Shown: positions 42,083 to 50,351 of the stretch, piece by piece
Numbering within the stretch: position 1 is the first letter of the stretch
How the letters are laid out: each line of letters begins with the position of its first letter
The notes under the pieces: generated by a model
Seen by the model: the letters and a program-made list of their open reading frames with translations, nothing else
Databases searched by the model: none
Told to the model about the DNA's origin: nothing
From: Caldilineaceae bacterium
Lineage (GTDB): Bacteria; Chloroflexota; Anaerolineae; Caldilineales; Caldilineaceae
Length of the DNA: 64,000 nucleotides
Assembly: GCA_022842065.1 (NCBI GenBank)
Contig: JALHQH010000031.1
Span: 5,245 to 69,244, forward strand
Direction: 5' to 3'
Made by a program: the position numbers and the translations under genes

Positions 42083-42222
42083 AAATTCATTATGCAACCT
42101 TAACGCATCGGGCATAACCTTTGCGTTTACTGCCTTGATTGCTGCACTAAGTTACGCAAAGCAGTTGTTACCTGTTGTGTCTCTTGCTCGCGTTGACGGA
42201 TTGGTCAGACCGGAGGATTGAA

Positions 42223-44100
42223 ATGGCCCAGAATTTCGGTGTTACTTGGCCAAAGCGTGCCGATTGGCAACAGCTAGGGGCTAAAGTACGCCATGTGCTG
42301 GCCGTGCCGCAGCTACATTGGCGTACTGCCTTCACCGCTGCGCTGATCATTTTAGTGTTGATGGTCGGCTTGGCCTTCTTTCAAGCCTTCCGGGTCCAAC
42401 AATGGTATTTGGCGCGTACCGCCACGGAATGGCAGGTGCAGACGGCGCGGCTGGCCAGGCAATCGTCTTTACTGGCGCCCTGGGCTGAACATCTGCGCGT
42501 GGCGACACCGGCGACACAAGTACACTTAACCCTGCTGTTACAAGAGTGGGCCGCGCTCTTTAATGCCGAACTGACACTGGTTGACCCCCGTGGTGTGGTG
42601 CAAACAACCACCCTTGCTGAGTCACCAACGCGCGCACTGCTGCATTTGCCGGAGATTGCCCAGGCATTGGCTGGTAATCTCCAGACACAGGTCCGTGATG
42701 AGGAAAGCTCCGGGCGGGAGTTTTTGTGGATCGCAACCCCCTTAACCAATGCCGGCGTAGTCACGGGCGCGCTCCAACTGCGGGTGCCGCTACGTGAGCA
42801 GGTGCAGATCGGGGCCTTGGGGCGTGGTCTTTTGCTGCCACCGGTGCTGCTGGTTGCCCTGGCCATCATTGCCATGATGATCGTGCAAGCAGAACAAGCT
42901 GCCTATACCTTACGCCGCTTAGCCACGGTGGCCGAACGGATTGCCGCCGGCGATCTGGGCGCCCGTACGCTTTCCCTCAGTGGTGGTGAAGTTGGTCAAT
43001 TTGTGCGCGCCTTTAACCGCATGGCGGATAAGTTGCAAAAACAGATGGCCAAACGCGCCCGTGAGAAGGATCGGCTCAACACGGTGCTGCAGGTGATGAC
43101 TGATGGCGTCCTGATCCTCAACCGCCATGGTAGTGTACGCCTGCTCAACCCTGCTGCTGCCCAAATCTTGAAGACGACGCCGGAACGTGCGCTCAAACGT
43201 TCCTTTGTGCAGGCGGTGCGCGACCACCGCTTTGTTGAGGTCTTCCAACGTTGTCAACAGACCGGCCAAGGGGAGAGCGCGATTTTGGAGCTGGACGGCG
43301 AGCGCTTTATGCGCATGATTGTCACCCCACTTTTGAAGGGTAACAATCGCGGGCACTTGGTCGTTGTACAGGATCTGACGCGCTTGCATCAATTACAAAC
43401 CATGCGCCGGGATTTTGTTAGCAACATCTCCCACGAATTGCGGACCCCGCTGGCTTCGTTGCGCGCCCTGGTTGACACGCTCAATGACGGTGCCCTGGAT
43501 GATCCGGTGGCAGCGCAGCGCTTCCTCAAACATATGGAGGTCGAAGTCGATGCCCTGACCCAAATGGTGCAGGAATTGCTGGATCTATCACGCATCGAGT
43601 CTGGTAACGCTGTGTTACAACTGGCGGCCGTGCCGGCCGCGGCGGTCATTACCCACGGCGCTGAACGACTACGCACCCAGGCCGAACGGGCTGAAATTGA
43701 CTTGCAGATCAACGTTGATGCAGCGTTCCCTGATCTGCGGGTGGATGTGGGGCGCGTTGAACAGGTGCTCACGAATCTGATTCATAATGCAATCAAATTT
43801 ACCCCACCTGGCGGTACTATCACTATTTCGGCCCTTGTGCGCGAGGGTGACAGCATTGTCATCAAAGTCGCTGACACTGGGGTCGGCATTGCGTATGAGG
43901 ATCAGCCACGCATCTTTGAGCGCTTCTTCAAGGCTGATCGCGCCCGTTCGGGGGGCGGCACCGGTTTGGGCTTGGCGATTGCCAAACATATTGTCCAAGC
44001 ACATGGTGGTCGCATCTGGGTCGATAGCAAACCCAACAAAGGCAGCACCTTCTACTTTACGCTACCCATTGCGAATAACACATTAACAGTTGACAATTAA
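42223..44100 (+). CDS. phoR: PhoR-type membrane sensor histidine kinase
   Basis: A 625-aa kinase. Membrane helices lie at about 40-62 and 215-240 (LLLPPVLLVALAIIAMMIV), flanking an extracellular sensor region. HAMP follows (LATVAERIAAGDLGAR), then a PAS domain (DGVLILNRHGSVRLLNPAA). HisKA has SNISHELRTPLASLR, and the HATPase has NLIHNAIKF, DTGVGI and GGTGLGLAIAK. GGAGG lies 7 nt before ATG 42223; an upstream ATG 42175 lacks one. The pst genes follow, so phosphate sensing is likely. The last residues (NTLTVDN) are encoded by an intergenic-type repeat. Confidence 0.9.
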   Translation: MAQNFGVTWPKRADWQQLGAKVRHVLAVPQLHWRTAFTAALIILVLMVGLAFFQAFRVQQWYLARTATEWQVQTARLARQSSLLAPWAEHLRVATPATQVHLTLLLQEWAALFNAELTLVDPRGVVQTTTLAESPTRALLHLPEIAQALAGNLQTQVRDEESSGREFLWIATPLTNAGVVTGALQLRVPLREQVQIGALGRGLLLPPVLLVALAIIAMMIVQAEQAAYTLRRLATVAERIAAGDLGARTLSLSGGEVGQFVRAFNRMADKLQKQMAKRAREKDRLNTVLQVMTDGVLILNRHGSVRLLNPAAAQILKTTPERALKRSFVQAVRDHRFVEVFQRCQQTGQGESAILELDGERFMRMIVTPLLKGNNRGHLVVVQDLTRLHQLQTMRRDFVSNISHELRTPLASLRALVDTLNDGALDDPVAAQRFLKHMEVEVDALTQMVQELLDLSRIESGNAVLQLAAVPAAAVITHGAERLRTQAERAEIDLQINVDAAFPDLRVDVGRVEQVLTNLIHNAIKFTPPGGTITISALVREGDSIVIKVADTGVGIAYEDQPRIFERFFKADRARSGGGTGLGLAIAKHIVQAHGGRIWVDSKPNKGSTFYFTLPIANNTLTVDN

Positions 44101-44383: not shown

Positions 44384-45490
44384 ATGCGTCGATTAACAAT
44401 GGTCTTGTTGCCGATGGTGTTGCTGGCACTGTTGCTGGCCGCCTGCCCAGCTGCTACGCCAGCCGAACCGGCTGCCGCCCCCACGGAAGCCCCTGCTGCC
44501 GAAGCCCCTGCTGCCAGCGAAGCGATGACCGATACGGAAACGATGACAGACACCGCTGCGATGACAGACACTGGTGCCATGACTGACACCGCCCCAATGG
44601 CCGACGTCACGTTGCCGGAAGTGAATCCGCTCGAAGTGACCGGCGATATCATTACGGCTGGTTCCTCCACCGTATTCCCGTTGACCGAGGCGATGGCCAA
44701 TCGCTTCATTGACGAAGGTTACGCCGGCAATATCACGATTGACAGCGTCGGCACCGGTGCCGGCTTTGAGCGCTTCTGTGTCTCCGGCGAGACGGATATC
44801 TCCAACGCCAGCCGCGCTATCGAAGAAGATGAAGTTGCCAGTTGCGCCGCCATCGGTCGCGAACCAATCGAATTCCGCGTCGGTACGGATGCCCTGGCCG
44901 TGGTGGTCAATCCTGAGAATACCTGGGTCACTGATCTGACCGTGGAACAAGTCGCCCAACTCTTCTCGACTGATGTCGTCAACTGGTCGGATGTTGATCC
45001 GAGCTGGCCGGCGGAACCGGTGTTGCGCTTTAGCCCCGGCACCGACAGCGGCACCTTTGATTACTTTGTCGAAGCCGTGATGGAAGAGACCTTTGGTGAC
45101 GAAGGCGCGGCCAAGCTGTTGGATGCTGGTAACCTGCAACTGAGTGAAGATGACAATGTGTTGTCACAGGGTGTTGCCGGTGAAAAGAATGGCATTGGCT
45201 ACTTTGGTTACGCCTTTTACGAAGAAAATGCCGGTAACCTCAAGTTGGCGACGATCAATGGCGTTGAAGGCAATGCTGAAGATGTCGAAAACGGTACCTA
45301 TCCGTTGGCTCGCCCGCTCTTCATCTACTCCGATGCTACGGTAATGACCGAGAAGCCGCAGGTTGCTGCCTTCATCAACTTCTACCTGACCTATGTGAAT
45401 GAAGAGGTCATTGAAGTCGGTTATTTCCCGGCCTCAGCCGAGACCTTGACTGAGGCTAAGAGCCACTGGCTTACCGTAGTGGGCGAATAA
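44384..45490 (+). CDS. pstS: Phosphate-binding lipoprotein PstS
   Basis: The periplasmic/extracellular phosphate receptor for PstCAB. It has a lipoprotein signal with the Cys in LLLAAC (residue 21). A spacer of MTDT repeats and A/P-rich sequence runs to about residue 85. The binding fold carries phosphate-contacting motifs AGSSTVFPL, SNASRAI and GTDSGTFDYF. The second lobe has GIGYFGYAFYEENAG. GGGAGA lies 9 nt before the ATG. It is the first gene of the pstS-C-A-B-phoU operon and has a Pho box upstream and a partial terminator downstream. Confidence 0.95.
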   Translation: MRRLTMVLLPMVLLALLLAACPAATPAEPAAAPTEAPAAEAPAASEAMTDTETMTDTAAMTDTGAMTDTAPMADVTLPEVNPLEVTGDIITAGSSTVFPLTEAMANRFIDEGYAGNITIDSVGTGAGFERFCVSGETDISNASRAIEEDEVASCAAIGREPIEFRVGTDALAVVVNPENTWVTDLTVEQVAQLFSTDVVNWSDVDPSWPAEPVLRFSPGTDSGTFDYFVEAVMEETFGDEGAAKLLDAGNLQLSEDDNVLSQGVAGEKNGIGYFGYAFYEENAGNLKLATINGVEGNAEDVENGTYPLARPLFIYSDATVMTEKPQVAAFINFYLTYVNEEVIEVGYFPASAETLTEAKSHWLTVVGE

Positions 45491-45659: not shown

Positions 45660-46673
45660 ATGGAGAGTAAAAAGGTGGAAAGTAATTTATCCGTATCAGG
45701 AACGATCGTCGGCGAATTAGCCACTACACCCACCCGTGTAAATTTGCATAGACGGTTGCGGATTGGTGAGCGGGTCATTCAACTATTGCTCTTTCTGTGT
45801 GGCGCCATCTCTGTGCTGACGACGGTCGGGATTTTATTTGTGTTAGGCCGTGAGTCATTTCTTTTCTTTCAACTGCCGGAAGTGACGCTGCTGGACACGA
45901 TCACCAAAGTAAAATGGCAGCCCGCGATTGGGGAATTTGGCATCTGGCCATTGGTTATTGCTACCTTAACCACCAGCTTTGTTGCCATGCTGATTGCATT
46001 GCCGTTGGGGTTGATGATCGCTATCTATCTTAGCGAATATGCTTCGGCGCGGGTGCGCGGCATCTTAAAGCCAATCCTCGAAGTGCTCGCTGGGATTCCG
46101 ACCATCGTTTATGGCTATTTTGCCTTAACCTTTATGACGCCGATTCTGCGCAATCTCTTTGGCACTGATCTGGTTGAGATCTACAACACCGCTTCGGCCG
46201 GGATTGTCATTGGCATTTTAATTCTCCCACTGGTGACCTCCATGAGTGAAGATGCCCTCTCTGCCGTGCCGCGTGCCTTGCGCGAAGCGGCCTATGGGTT
46301 GGGGGCCACCAAACTCGAATCTTCGGTGCAGATTGTGTTGCCCGCTGCGCTATCGGGGATTGCGGCGGCGATCATTGTGGCCATCTCCCGCGCGATCGGT
46401 GAAACCATGGTCGTTGCGGTGGCGGCTGGGGCTGGCCCGCGTAATTTTAACAGTTGGGGCGAAGCGCTGGATGGGTTGGCAATCGCCAATCCGTTTAAGG
46501 CCGCCGAAACCATGACCGGTCACATTGTGCGGATTAGTGGCGGTGATTTGAGCTACGATTCAATCGACTATGCCAGCCTCTTTGCGATTGGTCTGTTGCT
46601 CTTCTTTATGACCTTAAGCTTAAACATTATCAGCCGCATCATCGTTGCCCGATTCCGCGAGGAGTATGATTGA
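45660..46673 (+). CDS. pstC: Phosphate ABC transporter permease PstC
   Basis: One of the two membrane subunits of the phosphate importer, 337 aa with six predicted helices. Typical stretches are [51 protein letters not shown] (EAA loop) and [18 protein letters not shown] 45660 has no clear ribosome-binding site; GTG 45675 has GGAGAG 6 nt upstream and is plausible. The stop codon overlaps the pstA start (TGATG). Confidence 0.93.
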
Positions 46674-48784
46674 TGGCAAACCAATTACCCGTAACCCCAC
46701 CCACTGCCACCGACTATCCAGTTGGGGAGCAGATGCAGCAACAGGTGACCACCCGTCGGCGCCGTGGCTTTATGTGGCAGAATGGCTTTATGTTGGCGAC
46801 AATGGTCGGCATTATTGCCCTGATCGCCCTGCTCTATAACATTATCAATAGCGCGTTCGGTTATGTCGCCATTCAAAATGAAATTGATCCGGAAGCCATT
46901 GTCCTGACGGCCGAAGAGGAACGCTTATTGGCGGCACCGAATCTGGTTTCCAGCGAGCAAGATGAAGATCTCGTGGCCGGCATTATTGACAATCCTTATG
47001 CGATTGGCTTTTTTGGTTATGCCTACTATCAAAATCAGGGTGATGGTCTGCAGGCCTTGACGGTCGAGGGTGTTGCACCGAGTGCCGCCACCGTCAACAG
47101 TGAAGAATATCAGCTTGCGCGACCGCTTTACCTCTATGCGGATGCCACCAGCATGGCCGACAAGCCGGCCGTCGCCGCCTTTTTGGACTATTATGTGGCG
47201 AATGTGGACAATGTGATCGAGGATGTGGGTTATTTTGCGGCCCCGGCGGCAACGCTTCAGGAAAATCTGGCTGTTGTACCAGGTGACGGCACTGCGCCGA
47301 CGGCAGTAACCGGTGACATTGCTATCGCCGGCAGTTCGACTGTCTATCCTTTGACGGCGCGCCTGGCCGAACAATTTACGGCTGAGGGCTTTACCGGTGC
47401 GCTGACGATTGATAATATCGGCACTTCGGCCGGCCTTGCCCGTTTCTGTGACGGCCAGGGGGTCGATATTGCCAATGCCAGTCGCGCCATTTCGCGCGGT
47501 GAAAGCGAACTGTGTGCGAAGAATCGGCGTACGCCTGTTGAATTGCGCGTCGGCACGGATGCCCTAGCCGTCGTGGTCAGTGCCCAGAATGAATTCCTTT
47601 CGGCGGTCACCCTGGAGCAACTGCGCCAGATCTTCACCACGGCCGAAACCTGGGCGGATGTTGATCCATCGTGGCCCGCCGAACCAATTGTCCGTTATGT
47701 GCCTGGGCTCGACAGTGGCACCCTCGACTTTTTTGTGGAAACTGTGTTTGACCGTACCTTGGCCGATTTGCCCAAGGCGACCTTGGTTGAGATTCTGGAA
47801 GACAATGTATCTGCCGGTCTACTCCGCCGTTTTGAGAGCGACCAACCCTTCGCCGAGCGCACCCAGGAAAATGTCTATGATCTGGTGCTGGAACGGGTGG
47901 TCAATCCCGTGGTTGTCAGATCTTGGACCTTGCGCGAATCGTTGCTGATGAAGCCCGATATTGAAGCGGAAGCGGCCACGATTCAAAATGGTGAACTCTC
48001 CTTTCGGAGTTGGTTGACGTTGGATTTCCTGACCGATACGCAATCGTCCTTGCCGCAACAATCTGGCGTGCGTACCGCTATTTTTGGTTCGCTGTGGGTG
48101 ATTCTGATCACGATTTTGTTTTCGCTGCCGATTGGGGTGGGAGCGGCTGTTTATCTGGAAGAATACGCCGATGATAATTGGCTCAACCGGCTGATCGAGA
48201 CCAACATTAACAACCTGGCCGGCGTGCCTTCGATCATCTACGGTCTGTTGGGATTGGCCGTCTTTGTGCGTTTGCTGGAACCATTTACCAGCGGCAATCT
48301 CTTTGGTGTCGTTGATGCCACCACGGCTAATGGCCGCACGGTCATCTCGGCCGGCTTAACGCTTGGCCTCCTGATCTTGCCCTTGATCATCATCAATGCC
48401 CGCGAGGCCATCCGCGCTGTGCCTTCCTCCCTGCGTCAGGCCAGCTTGGGGTTGGGTGCAACCCAGTGGCAGACGATTTGGAATCATGTTTTACCCAACG
48501 CGTTGCCCGGCATTCTAACCGGTGCCATTCTTTCGGTCTCGCGTGCGCTGGGTGAAACTGCCCCCCTGGTTGTGATTGGGGCCTCGACCTTTATTGTGGT
48601 CGATCCGGATGGCCCTTTTTCAAAATTCACCACCTTGCCGATTCAGATCTATCAATGGACTTCGCGCCCGCAAGATGAGTTCCGTAATATTGCCGCGGCG
48701 GCGATTATTGTCTTACTTGTCTTGCTACTCACCCTCAATGCCAGTGCGGTGATCTTGCGCAACCGCTATACCAGGAGAGTTTAA
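46673..48784 (+). CDS. pstA: PstA permease with inserted, circularly permuted PstS-like domain
   Basis: 703 aa, more than twice the usual PstA. Helix 1 (about 40-62) is followed by an extracytoplasmic region of about 400 residues. There, the second half of a PstS fold comes first ([26 protein letters not shown], about 105-200). The first half follows ([26 protein letters not shown], about 213-365), in the reverse of PstS order, with phosphate-contacting motifs kept. The remaining helices and permease loop ([44 protein letters not shown]) are normal PstA. The start overlaps the pstC stop codon, with GGAG upstream. Confidence 0.92.
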
Positions 48785-48786
48785 TC

Positions 48787-49608
48787 ATGAGTGAATATGT
48801 CAAGGAATTCAAACCGGCGAGTGCTTCAACGTCAACCGAGCAGGAACGTTATGCTATTGAGGCACACAAGCTCAACATCTTTTACGGCAAGTTTCATGCT
48901 GTACGTGATGTCGATCTCAAGATCGAGACCCGCAAGATTACGGCCATGATTGGGCCATCGGGCTGTGGCAAAAGCACCGTGTTGCGCTGTTTCAACCGCA
49001 TGAACGATCTGATCAGCAGCGCGCGCATCGAAGGCGAAGTGCTCTACAACCATCAAAATATCTATGCGTCGAATGTCGATCCAGTCGAAGTGCGGCGCCG
49101 AGTGGGCATGGTCTTTCAAAAACCAAACCCATTCCCCAAGAGCATCTATGAGAACATTGCCTGGGGCGCACGCGTTAATGGCTTCAAAGGCAACATGGAT
49201 GACTTGGTCGAGCAATCCCTGCGTAATGCGGCGCTGTGGGACGAAGTCAAAGAGAAGCTGCAACAGAGCGCCCTTGGCCTCTCCGGTGGTCAACAGCAGC
49301 GGCTCTGTATTGCGCGCACGATTGCCGTCAAGCCGGATATTATCCTCATGGATGAACCGTGTTCGGCTTTGGACCCCATTGCGACGCTGAAGATCGAAGA
49401 CCTCATGCGCGAATTAACTGCGCAATATACGATCATTATCGTTACGCACAATATGCAACAGGCCGCCCGCGTCTCGGACTATACGGCCTTTTATATGGTT
49501 GATGATAGCCGCACTGGGCACCTGGCCGAGTTTGGCGTCACCAAAGAGATCTTTACCAATCCCAAAGATAAGCGCACGGAAGATTACATTACCGGCCGCT
49601 TCGGGTAA
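48787..49608 (+). CDS. pstB: Phosphate ABC transporter ATPase PstB
   Basis: The cytoplasmic ATPase that powers PstCA. Walker [10 protein letters not shown] (about 56-64), signature LSGGQQQR, Walker [13 protein letters not shown], and the H-loop ([16 protein letters not shown]). The 273-aa length is normal. It starts 2 bp after pstA. Confidence 0.97.
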
Positions 49609-49670: not shown

Positions 49671-50351
49671 ATGACAAGATTACACTATGCAAAAGAACTG
49701 CAACGGCTACAGGATGAGTTGCTGTTAATGGGCAGCATGGTCAGCCAGGCGCTGAGCGAAGCGCTGAGTGCGATGAAGCGCCAAGATATCGCCGCGGCGC
49801 AACGGCTGATTGAATATGATCGGTTAGTCAATCAAAAGCGCTATGCCTTGGAAGATGGGGTGCTGACGCTGATTGCAACGCAGCAACCGATGGCGCGCGA
49901 TATGCGCTTTTTGGCCGCAGTCCTCGATCTGGCCTCGGAGCTGGAGCGGATTGGCGACTATGCCAAGGGCATTGGCCGCATTACGATTTTCCTGGGCAAA
50001 GAGTCGGCCGTGAAACCGCTGATCCATCTGCCGCAGATGTGTACCATTGTGGTCGAAATGTTGCGCGACGCCCTTGACGCCTTTATCAACCAAGATATCA
50101 CCGCCGCCCGCCAGATCCCGCTGCGCGATGATCAGGTGGATGAGTTATATAACACAGTTAATGGCGAGTTGATGCAATTAGTGATCGCCAATCCCTCGAT
50201 CATGGATCGGGCCAATTACTATTCCTGGGCTGCCCACAATTTAGAGCGCGCGGCCGACCGGGTTGTCAACATTTGTGAGCGCATTATCTATACCGTAACT
50301 GGTGAATTTGTCGAGATGGATAGCGAAGAGTCCACCGCCAGTATTATGTAA
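49671..50351 (+). CDS. phoU: Phosphate signalling regulator PhoU
   Basis: A 226-aa helical protein with two PhoU repeats (about 1-110 and 115-215), including MARDMRFLAAVLDLASELERIGDYA and NLERAADRVVNICER-type metal/contact motifs. It dampens the PhoR-PhoB signal and Pst transport when phosphate is plentiful. It is the last gene of the pst operon, with GGAGA before the ATG and a strong terminator after it. Confidence 0.95.
   Translation: MTRLHYAKELQRLQDELLLMGSMVSQALSEALSAMKRQDIAAAQRLIEYDRLVNQKRYALEDGVLTLIATQQPMARDMRFLAAVLDLASELERIGDYAKGIGRITIFLGKESAVKPLIHLPQMCTIVVEMLRDALDAFINQDITAARQIPLRDDQVDELYNTVNGELMQLVIANPSIMDRANYYSWAAHNLERAADRVVNICERIIYTVTGEFVEMDSEESTASIM

Follow-up and report, generated by a model that had tools for sequence, protein, structure and literature searches.

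The phosphate permease PstA encoded in a 64,000-nucleotide stretch of a Caldilineaceae bacterium (contig JALHQH010000031.1; the whole stretch is called the window here) carries, between its first and second transmembrane helices (TM1 and TM2), a domain resembling the phosphate-binding protein PstS with its two halves in swapped order. Many Chloroflexota carry such a PstA, with a complete swapped-half phosphate-receptor domain in its outer loop. We lean towards the view that this tethered domain binds phosphate as an auxiliary receptor beside the lipoprotein PstS, and that it has a single origin, in a permutation through duplication. Two rare events meet in this one protein: a binding protein has been circularly permuted, and it has been placed within the loop of a permease.

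The swapped order was evident in two kinds of alignment (residues of the window PstA and its insert are counted here from the TTG at 46670, not from the ATG). In BLASTP comparisons, PstA residues 210-396 matched residues 82-262 of the window's free PstS (50% identity over 188 columns, E value of 1e-55), and PstA residues 85-198 matched PstS residues 244-357 (45% identity, E value of 9e-28). Against a profile of 266 positions made from 89 free PstS domains, the natural insert gave two matches, first to positions 147-265 and then to positions 1-156 (218 and 138 bits). When the insert residues were re-ordered in a script to read as PstS, a single match of 361 bits covered positions 1-265; the free PstS of the window scored 455 bits on this profile. 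With a summed score of 356 bits in natural order, the swap costs little total score and shows in the coordinates instead. The original prediction of an insertion after helix 1 of PstA with exchanged PstS halves is thus borne out, neither method having placed the halves in normal order.

Modeled as a domain on its own, the insert gave a compact structure (predicted template modeling score of 0.86) with the bilobal PstS fold, as had been anticipated, and not some other fold. Two unrelated half-domains are not supported, because there is a single compact model and the halves jointly cover PstS. Both parts of the protein belong to the sequence families of ordinary PstS and PstA (TIGR02136 and TIGR00974), which, unlike the fused and swapped insert, are separate proteins with PstS in normal order. 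TIGR00974 matched residues 449-700 of the window PstA with 258.2 bits, above its cut-off of 193.45, and PF00528 (BPD_transp_1) also exceeded its gathering score. On the whole protein, PF12849 reached 112.4 bits against a gathering score of 27, with a match to residues 208-362. TIGR02136 gave 187 bits on the insert, in two stretches, which is below its whole-protein cut-off of 206.6.

The borders of the insert follow from relatives that lack it. In these, TM1 is followed by the segment ...DPxxLxVDGVPLEELPKExLVxILExNVSxGL... and then by the remaining loop, and in the window PstA the same flanks are held apart by residues ∼79-365 (∼287 residues). Residues ∼366-465 correspond to the ordinary extracytoplasmic loop of this PstA clade, which is also present in insert-less relatives from Chloroflexota and Spirochaetales. 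The PstS-like part is therefore shorter than the 400 residues first proposed, a figure that included ∼95 residues of PstA's own loop. We observed that in insert-less PstA of these two groups (e.g., L061 7893-9137 and L026 7775-9076) the extracytoplasmic TM1-TM2 loop is itself enlarged, to ∼100 residues. Binding domain and transmembrane subunit lie on one chain, encoded by a single open reading frame (ORF) in the window. Judged by its sequence, the insert has no export signal or lipobox of its own: embedded in PstA behind TM1, it lacks a free N terminus. Since an arginine run (RRRRR) precedes TM1, the positive-inside rule would place the N terminus of PstA inside, and the insert should face outside.

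The phosphate site is conserved. The phosphate contacts of CpPstS (9JWY) are given as Ser32, Ser33, Thr34, Thr61, Ser83, Gly174, and Thr175 (PMC12421899); by alignment (chain index plus 22), these map to S222, S223, T224, T252, S271, G350, and T351 of the insert. We scored the set S222, S223, T224, S271, R272, S349, G350, and T351, tolerating S/T exchange at three positions, and found it complete in 64 of 65 inserts and in 110 of 113 free PstS rows; the column of T252 holds T or S in every row (65/65 and 113/113, respectively). The sole incomplete insert, that of L011, has unknown residues beside the site. The phosphate-contacting motifs are thus retained, as had been proposed, with all seven contact positions present in the insert of the window and in 64 of the 65. 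Across the 65 columns with at least 97% conservation in free PstS, the inserts match the PstS residue in 81% of cases on average, a share that falls to 51% in columns of 60-97% conservation and to 27% in columns below 60%.

The insert is under purifying selection that is less strict than that on the permease core. The ratio of nonsynonymous to synonymous substitution rates (dN/dS) was 0.07-0.40 in the insert halves versus 0.016-0.134 in the core (12 chosen insert pairs were tried, several sharing a member, and 11 had a finite dS), and it was 0.017-0.285 in free PstS (9 pairs).

The architecture is shared by many relatives. A database search with the window PstA returned 2262 matches at an E value of 1e-10 or better. 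The 120 listed, the first being the window's own protein, are 681-745 amino acids long (coverage of 94-100%, identity of 61-100%), the check proposed at the outset being a search for PstA homologues above 650 residues in Chloroflexota; organism names, where given among them, are Caldilineaceae, Chloroflexi, Chloroflexota, or Anaerolineae. Because source names, where given among these 120, read plain phosphate permease and the window protein scores under the TIGR02136 cut-off, an insert-bearing PstA is easy to overlook. In a sample of named genomes, with 80 loci listed, the insert was present in one frame in L001-L014, frameshifted in L056, and shrunken in L042 and L047; it was undetected in the other 63 loci, including Spirochaetales and Acidimicrobiia, some of which are cut by contig ends. 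Among 169 loci, 46 ORFs (35 distinct, some genomes occurring twice) had the order C-terminal half, N-terminal half, PstA core. In whole-genome counts, judged by match span and frame length, inserts were found in 6 of 46 genomes of the order of L001 and in 29 of 56 genomes of the order of L004, one of the latter being frameshifted and one incomplete. The insert was also found in 30 of 396 genomes sampled from the class of L001 (E value of 1e-62 or better) and in 1 of 400 sampled from the phylum, L001's own (E value of 1e-40, at most five candidates per genome). The class and phylum samples differ widely, and we claim no frequency for the phylum. No insert was detected in 198 Spirochaetota or 296 Actinomycetota genomes (E value of 1e-55), empty results that are weak on their own, although the same query finds matches in Chloroflexota. 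A free PstS lies upstream in all nine insert loci, among the 46 ORFs, that have at least 2.8 kb of upstream sequence.

That an assembly error or frameshift had joined pstS pieces to pstA is a negligible prospect. A frameshift does occur inside the insert of L056, a relative from the same genome as L169, and none was found for the window. The artefact is rejected because the 120 listed homologues, from several sources, are full-length with high coverage and because the insert matches in the two orders lack internal stops (6/46 and 28/56 genomes, the frameshifted one aside).

Chloroflexota also hold a plausible model for how the permutation came about. The permuted query aligned without a break across the middle of a PstS-PstS fusion in one ORF of Herpetosiphon geysericola (residues 17-297, 52% identity, E value of 8e-72). 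Such unbroken tandem matches, in ORFs that read N-C-N-C, occurred in 12 of the 400 genomes of the phylum sample, H. geysericola included. Tandems of Herpetosiphon, Roseiflexus, and other Chloroflexota share with the insert the same stretch of C-terminal half, linker, and N-terminal half across their junction; unlike the insert, they are free proteins with four halves. Single-ORF tandems in the phylum include L027 4387-6384, L024 4363-6381, L003 3354-5456, L013 3465-5288, and L082-L093. In three of the four loci measured, the copies are 100%, 99.3%, and 98.5% identical as proteins, which suggests recent doubling or gene conversion; in the fourth, L013, 161 of 201 positions agree, but a stretch of unknown residues in one copy makes this locus not comparable. 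On the PstS tree, the tandem label requires 9 changes, of which starred branches force at least 7.

The linkers point the same way. We compared 61 distinct linkers, drawn from 75 names (29 alignment-A1 rows and 46 ORFs) after merging duplicates and dropping rows that lack the flanking motifs. In 47 of the 61, a trace of the PstS tail exceeds the 95% level of shuffled linkers, where 3 would be expected. Alignment A1 holds 29 of the 120 proteins found; alignment A2 holds 61 of the 120 together with the window and 12 loci. A quickly built tree of 179 domains (rows with too-short halves left out, unknown residues removed) split 113 free or tandem PstS domains from 65 inserts by a branch with a Shimodaira-Hasegawa-like approximate likelihood ratio support of 100. 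Because this one branch separates the inserts from free PstS, independent and recent insertion events that each drew on the genome's own pstS are not supported. The best fit is one old origin with subsequent losses, exchange, or, in L042 and L047, decay. A head-to-tail PstS-PstS gene would have supplied a segment of C-terminal half, linker, and N-terminal half, which would then have landed once in the TM1-TM2 loop of PstA, and the insert would later have been lost, exchanged, or decayed in some lineages. Plausible stand-ins for the successive steps persist in the phylum: an insert-less permease, a tandem PstS, a permuted insert, and a shrunken insert. The last, in the PstA of two Caldilineales (L042 3916-5625 and L047 7432-9144), keeps part of the N-terminal half without phosphate motifs; the C-terminal half is gone.

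In the reading that we prefer, the tethered PstS domain would be anchored at the importer's mouth as an additional phosphate receptor, beside the free PstS, and would hand phosphate over to the pore. Several observations weigh against this reading or its origin by a single insertion. The function is read from sequence and a predicted structure. Most inserts depart from free PstS at G125, E129, R130, E136, and N258, residues that show 97-100% conservation there, and the free-PstS invariant F225 is L or M in all 65; because of these changes, docking on the permease may differ between the tethered domain and free PstS. These strongest departures lie away from the phosphate contacts and are candidate residues for permease docking or lobe contacts. 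The insert also evolves faster than the permease core. On the side of origin, the trace of the PstS lead is weak (21 of the 61 linkers, where 3 would be expected), and the single-origin domain tree is a quick one without bootstrap, in which a very long outgroup row joins inside the inserts and was flagged as a possible long-branch error. On a tree of permease cores (ORFs with fewer than 230 core residues left out; 55 of 122 inner branches open), the insert label is scattered: it requires 11 changes, and starred branches force at least 3 of these. The grouping of all insert-bearing cores in one clade is rejected (approximately unbiased test, P = 0.013; this test further omitted 2 shrunken rows, 2 undetermined rows, and 4 long-branch rows), so a single origin needs losses or transfer in addition. 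The extant tandems, moreover, are analogues of the intermediate rather than the ancestor, since they fall within the free-PstS clade and their copies are near-identical where cleanly measured; such doublings recur in the phylum.

The changed residues make a sensor or gate the main rival, since the contacts stayed while other PstS invariants did not. Phosphate-dependent closing of the tethered domain would shift the TM1-TM2 loop and set the transport rate or the signal through PstB, PhoU, and PhoR, with the cargo coming from free PstS. We consider this rather unlikely. It accords with the free PstS present in every checkable insert locus and with the histidine kinase and phoU that flank the operon; in E. 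coli, phosphate signaling requires pstSCAB and phoU (PMC4423584). Against it, many relatives with the same type of operon manage without the insert. A broader picture, in which a free lipoprotein PstS is paired with a built-in permuted PstS that gates or senses from the PstA loop instead of docking like PstS, and which was made by permutation through duplication with stand-ins for each step in one phylum, seems possible to us but somewhat doubtful. In this protein, nature provides a test case for the use of a built-in receptor that is wired differently from the importer's free one.

Improbable in our estimate is a docking scaffold for free PstS or for the loop, with the phosphate site incidental. 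The domain does occupy the TM1-TM2 loop, next to a PstA loop that is itself enlarged already, a position comparable to that of the MalF P2 loop, but this proposal leaves the retention of all seven phosphate contacts unexplained in 64 of 65 inserts. Still less probable is a decaying fusion relic with no present function. The shrunken inserts of L042 and L047 speak for it, as does the scatter of the insert label on the permease tree, a pattern that losses would leave, but dN/dS is well below 1 in all 11 insert pairs, and the contacts are kept.

Linked binding domains and permuted binding proteins are already known; for their combination we found no published case. In OpuA, the binding domain is at the C terminus of the transmembrane subunit, and we know of no free binding protein that belongs to OpuA or GlnPQ. 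In both of these Lactococcus lactis importers, as described in PMC8025302 and PMC2861598, the binding domain is covalently attached to the transmembrane subunit, as is the insert; the GlnP domains are placed at the N terminus (PMC8025302), while the insert is internal, between TM1 and TM2. OpuAC is not counted here as permuted relative to ProX, since PMC2861598 does not use that term. The window importer differs from both in that its linked domain is permuted and coexists with a free PstS. Tp0684 (MglB-2) of Treponema pallidum is a circularly permuted binding protein, glucose binding by the title of PMC4990184; in contrast to the insert, it is a separate, sugar-binding lipoprotein of another structural class. 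PstS2 (SP_2084) of Streptococcus pneumoniae (PDB 4h1x) is by sequence and structure also circularly permuted relative to other PstS proteins and, by its deposited name, is a separate phosphate-binding protein, whereas the insert is part of a permease. The two permutations look independent, because the cut in 4h1x apparently lies before the DSGT segment and that in the insert after it. Among the papers listed for 4h1x or SP_2084, the words "circular permutation" were not found. Among the papers listed, none describes a PstS domain inside PstA or a permuted PstS, with most subscription journals outside the search, and the accessible parts of PMC6588880 and PMC3654945 held no relevant case for the terms asked. 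The original prediction had known of no described example; this stands for the combination, but PstS permutation as such has a precedent in structure 4h1x.

In the window, pstS, pstC, pstA, an ATP-binding cassette (ABC) ATPase gene, and phoU follow one another on the plus strand in the layout of a pstSCAB-phoU operon. The ATG of pstA at 46673 overlaps the stop of pstC; PstA has 703 amino acids from this ATG and 704 from the TTG at 46670, and the E. coli PstA chains in a solved complex have 296.

Table 1. Positions of the phosphate-uptake genes and of the parts of PstA in the window
Feature	Coordinates	Strand	Basis
Sensor histidine kinase (HAMP, PAS, HisKA, HATPase_c)	42175..44100	+	PhoR-like by position
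Free PstS, normal half order	44384..45490	+	TIGR02136, 248.7 bits (cut-off 206.6)
pstC, without insert	45660..46673	+	TIGR02138, 245.8 bits, covering 1-295 of 296
pstA with inserted permuted PstS domain	46673..48784	+	TIGR00974, PF00528, PF12849
TM helix 1 of PstA, ∼residues 38-62	46781..46855	+	Model helix 19-61; probable TM limits
Inserted permuted PstS domain, ∼residues 79-365	46904..47764	+	Comparison with insert-less PstA; model fold
PstS C-terminal half, placed first, residues 85-198, GFFGYAYY	46922..47263	+	45% identity to PstS 244-357
Internal linker, old PstS C terminus to old N terminus	47264..47311	+	Tail and lead traces in linkers
PstS N-terminal half, placed second, residues 210-361, GSST/IGT/NASR/DSGT	47297..47752	+	PF12849; 50% identity to PstS
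PstA's own extracytoplasmic TM1-TM2 loop, ∼residues 366-464, outside insert	47765..48061	+	Present in insert-less PstA
PstA permease core (BPD_transp_1)	48062..48781	+	TIGR00974, PF00528
pstB (ABC ATPase)	48787..49608	+	PF00005; pstB name from operon context
phoU	49671..50351	+	PF01895

Beside the insert-bearing operons of two relatives, a diverged second set of pstS-, pstC-, and pstA-like genes is divergently oriented (L004 1368-4184 and L007 1342-4137, both on the minus strand).
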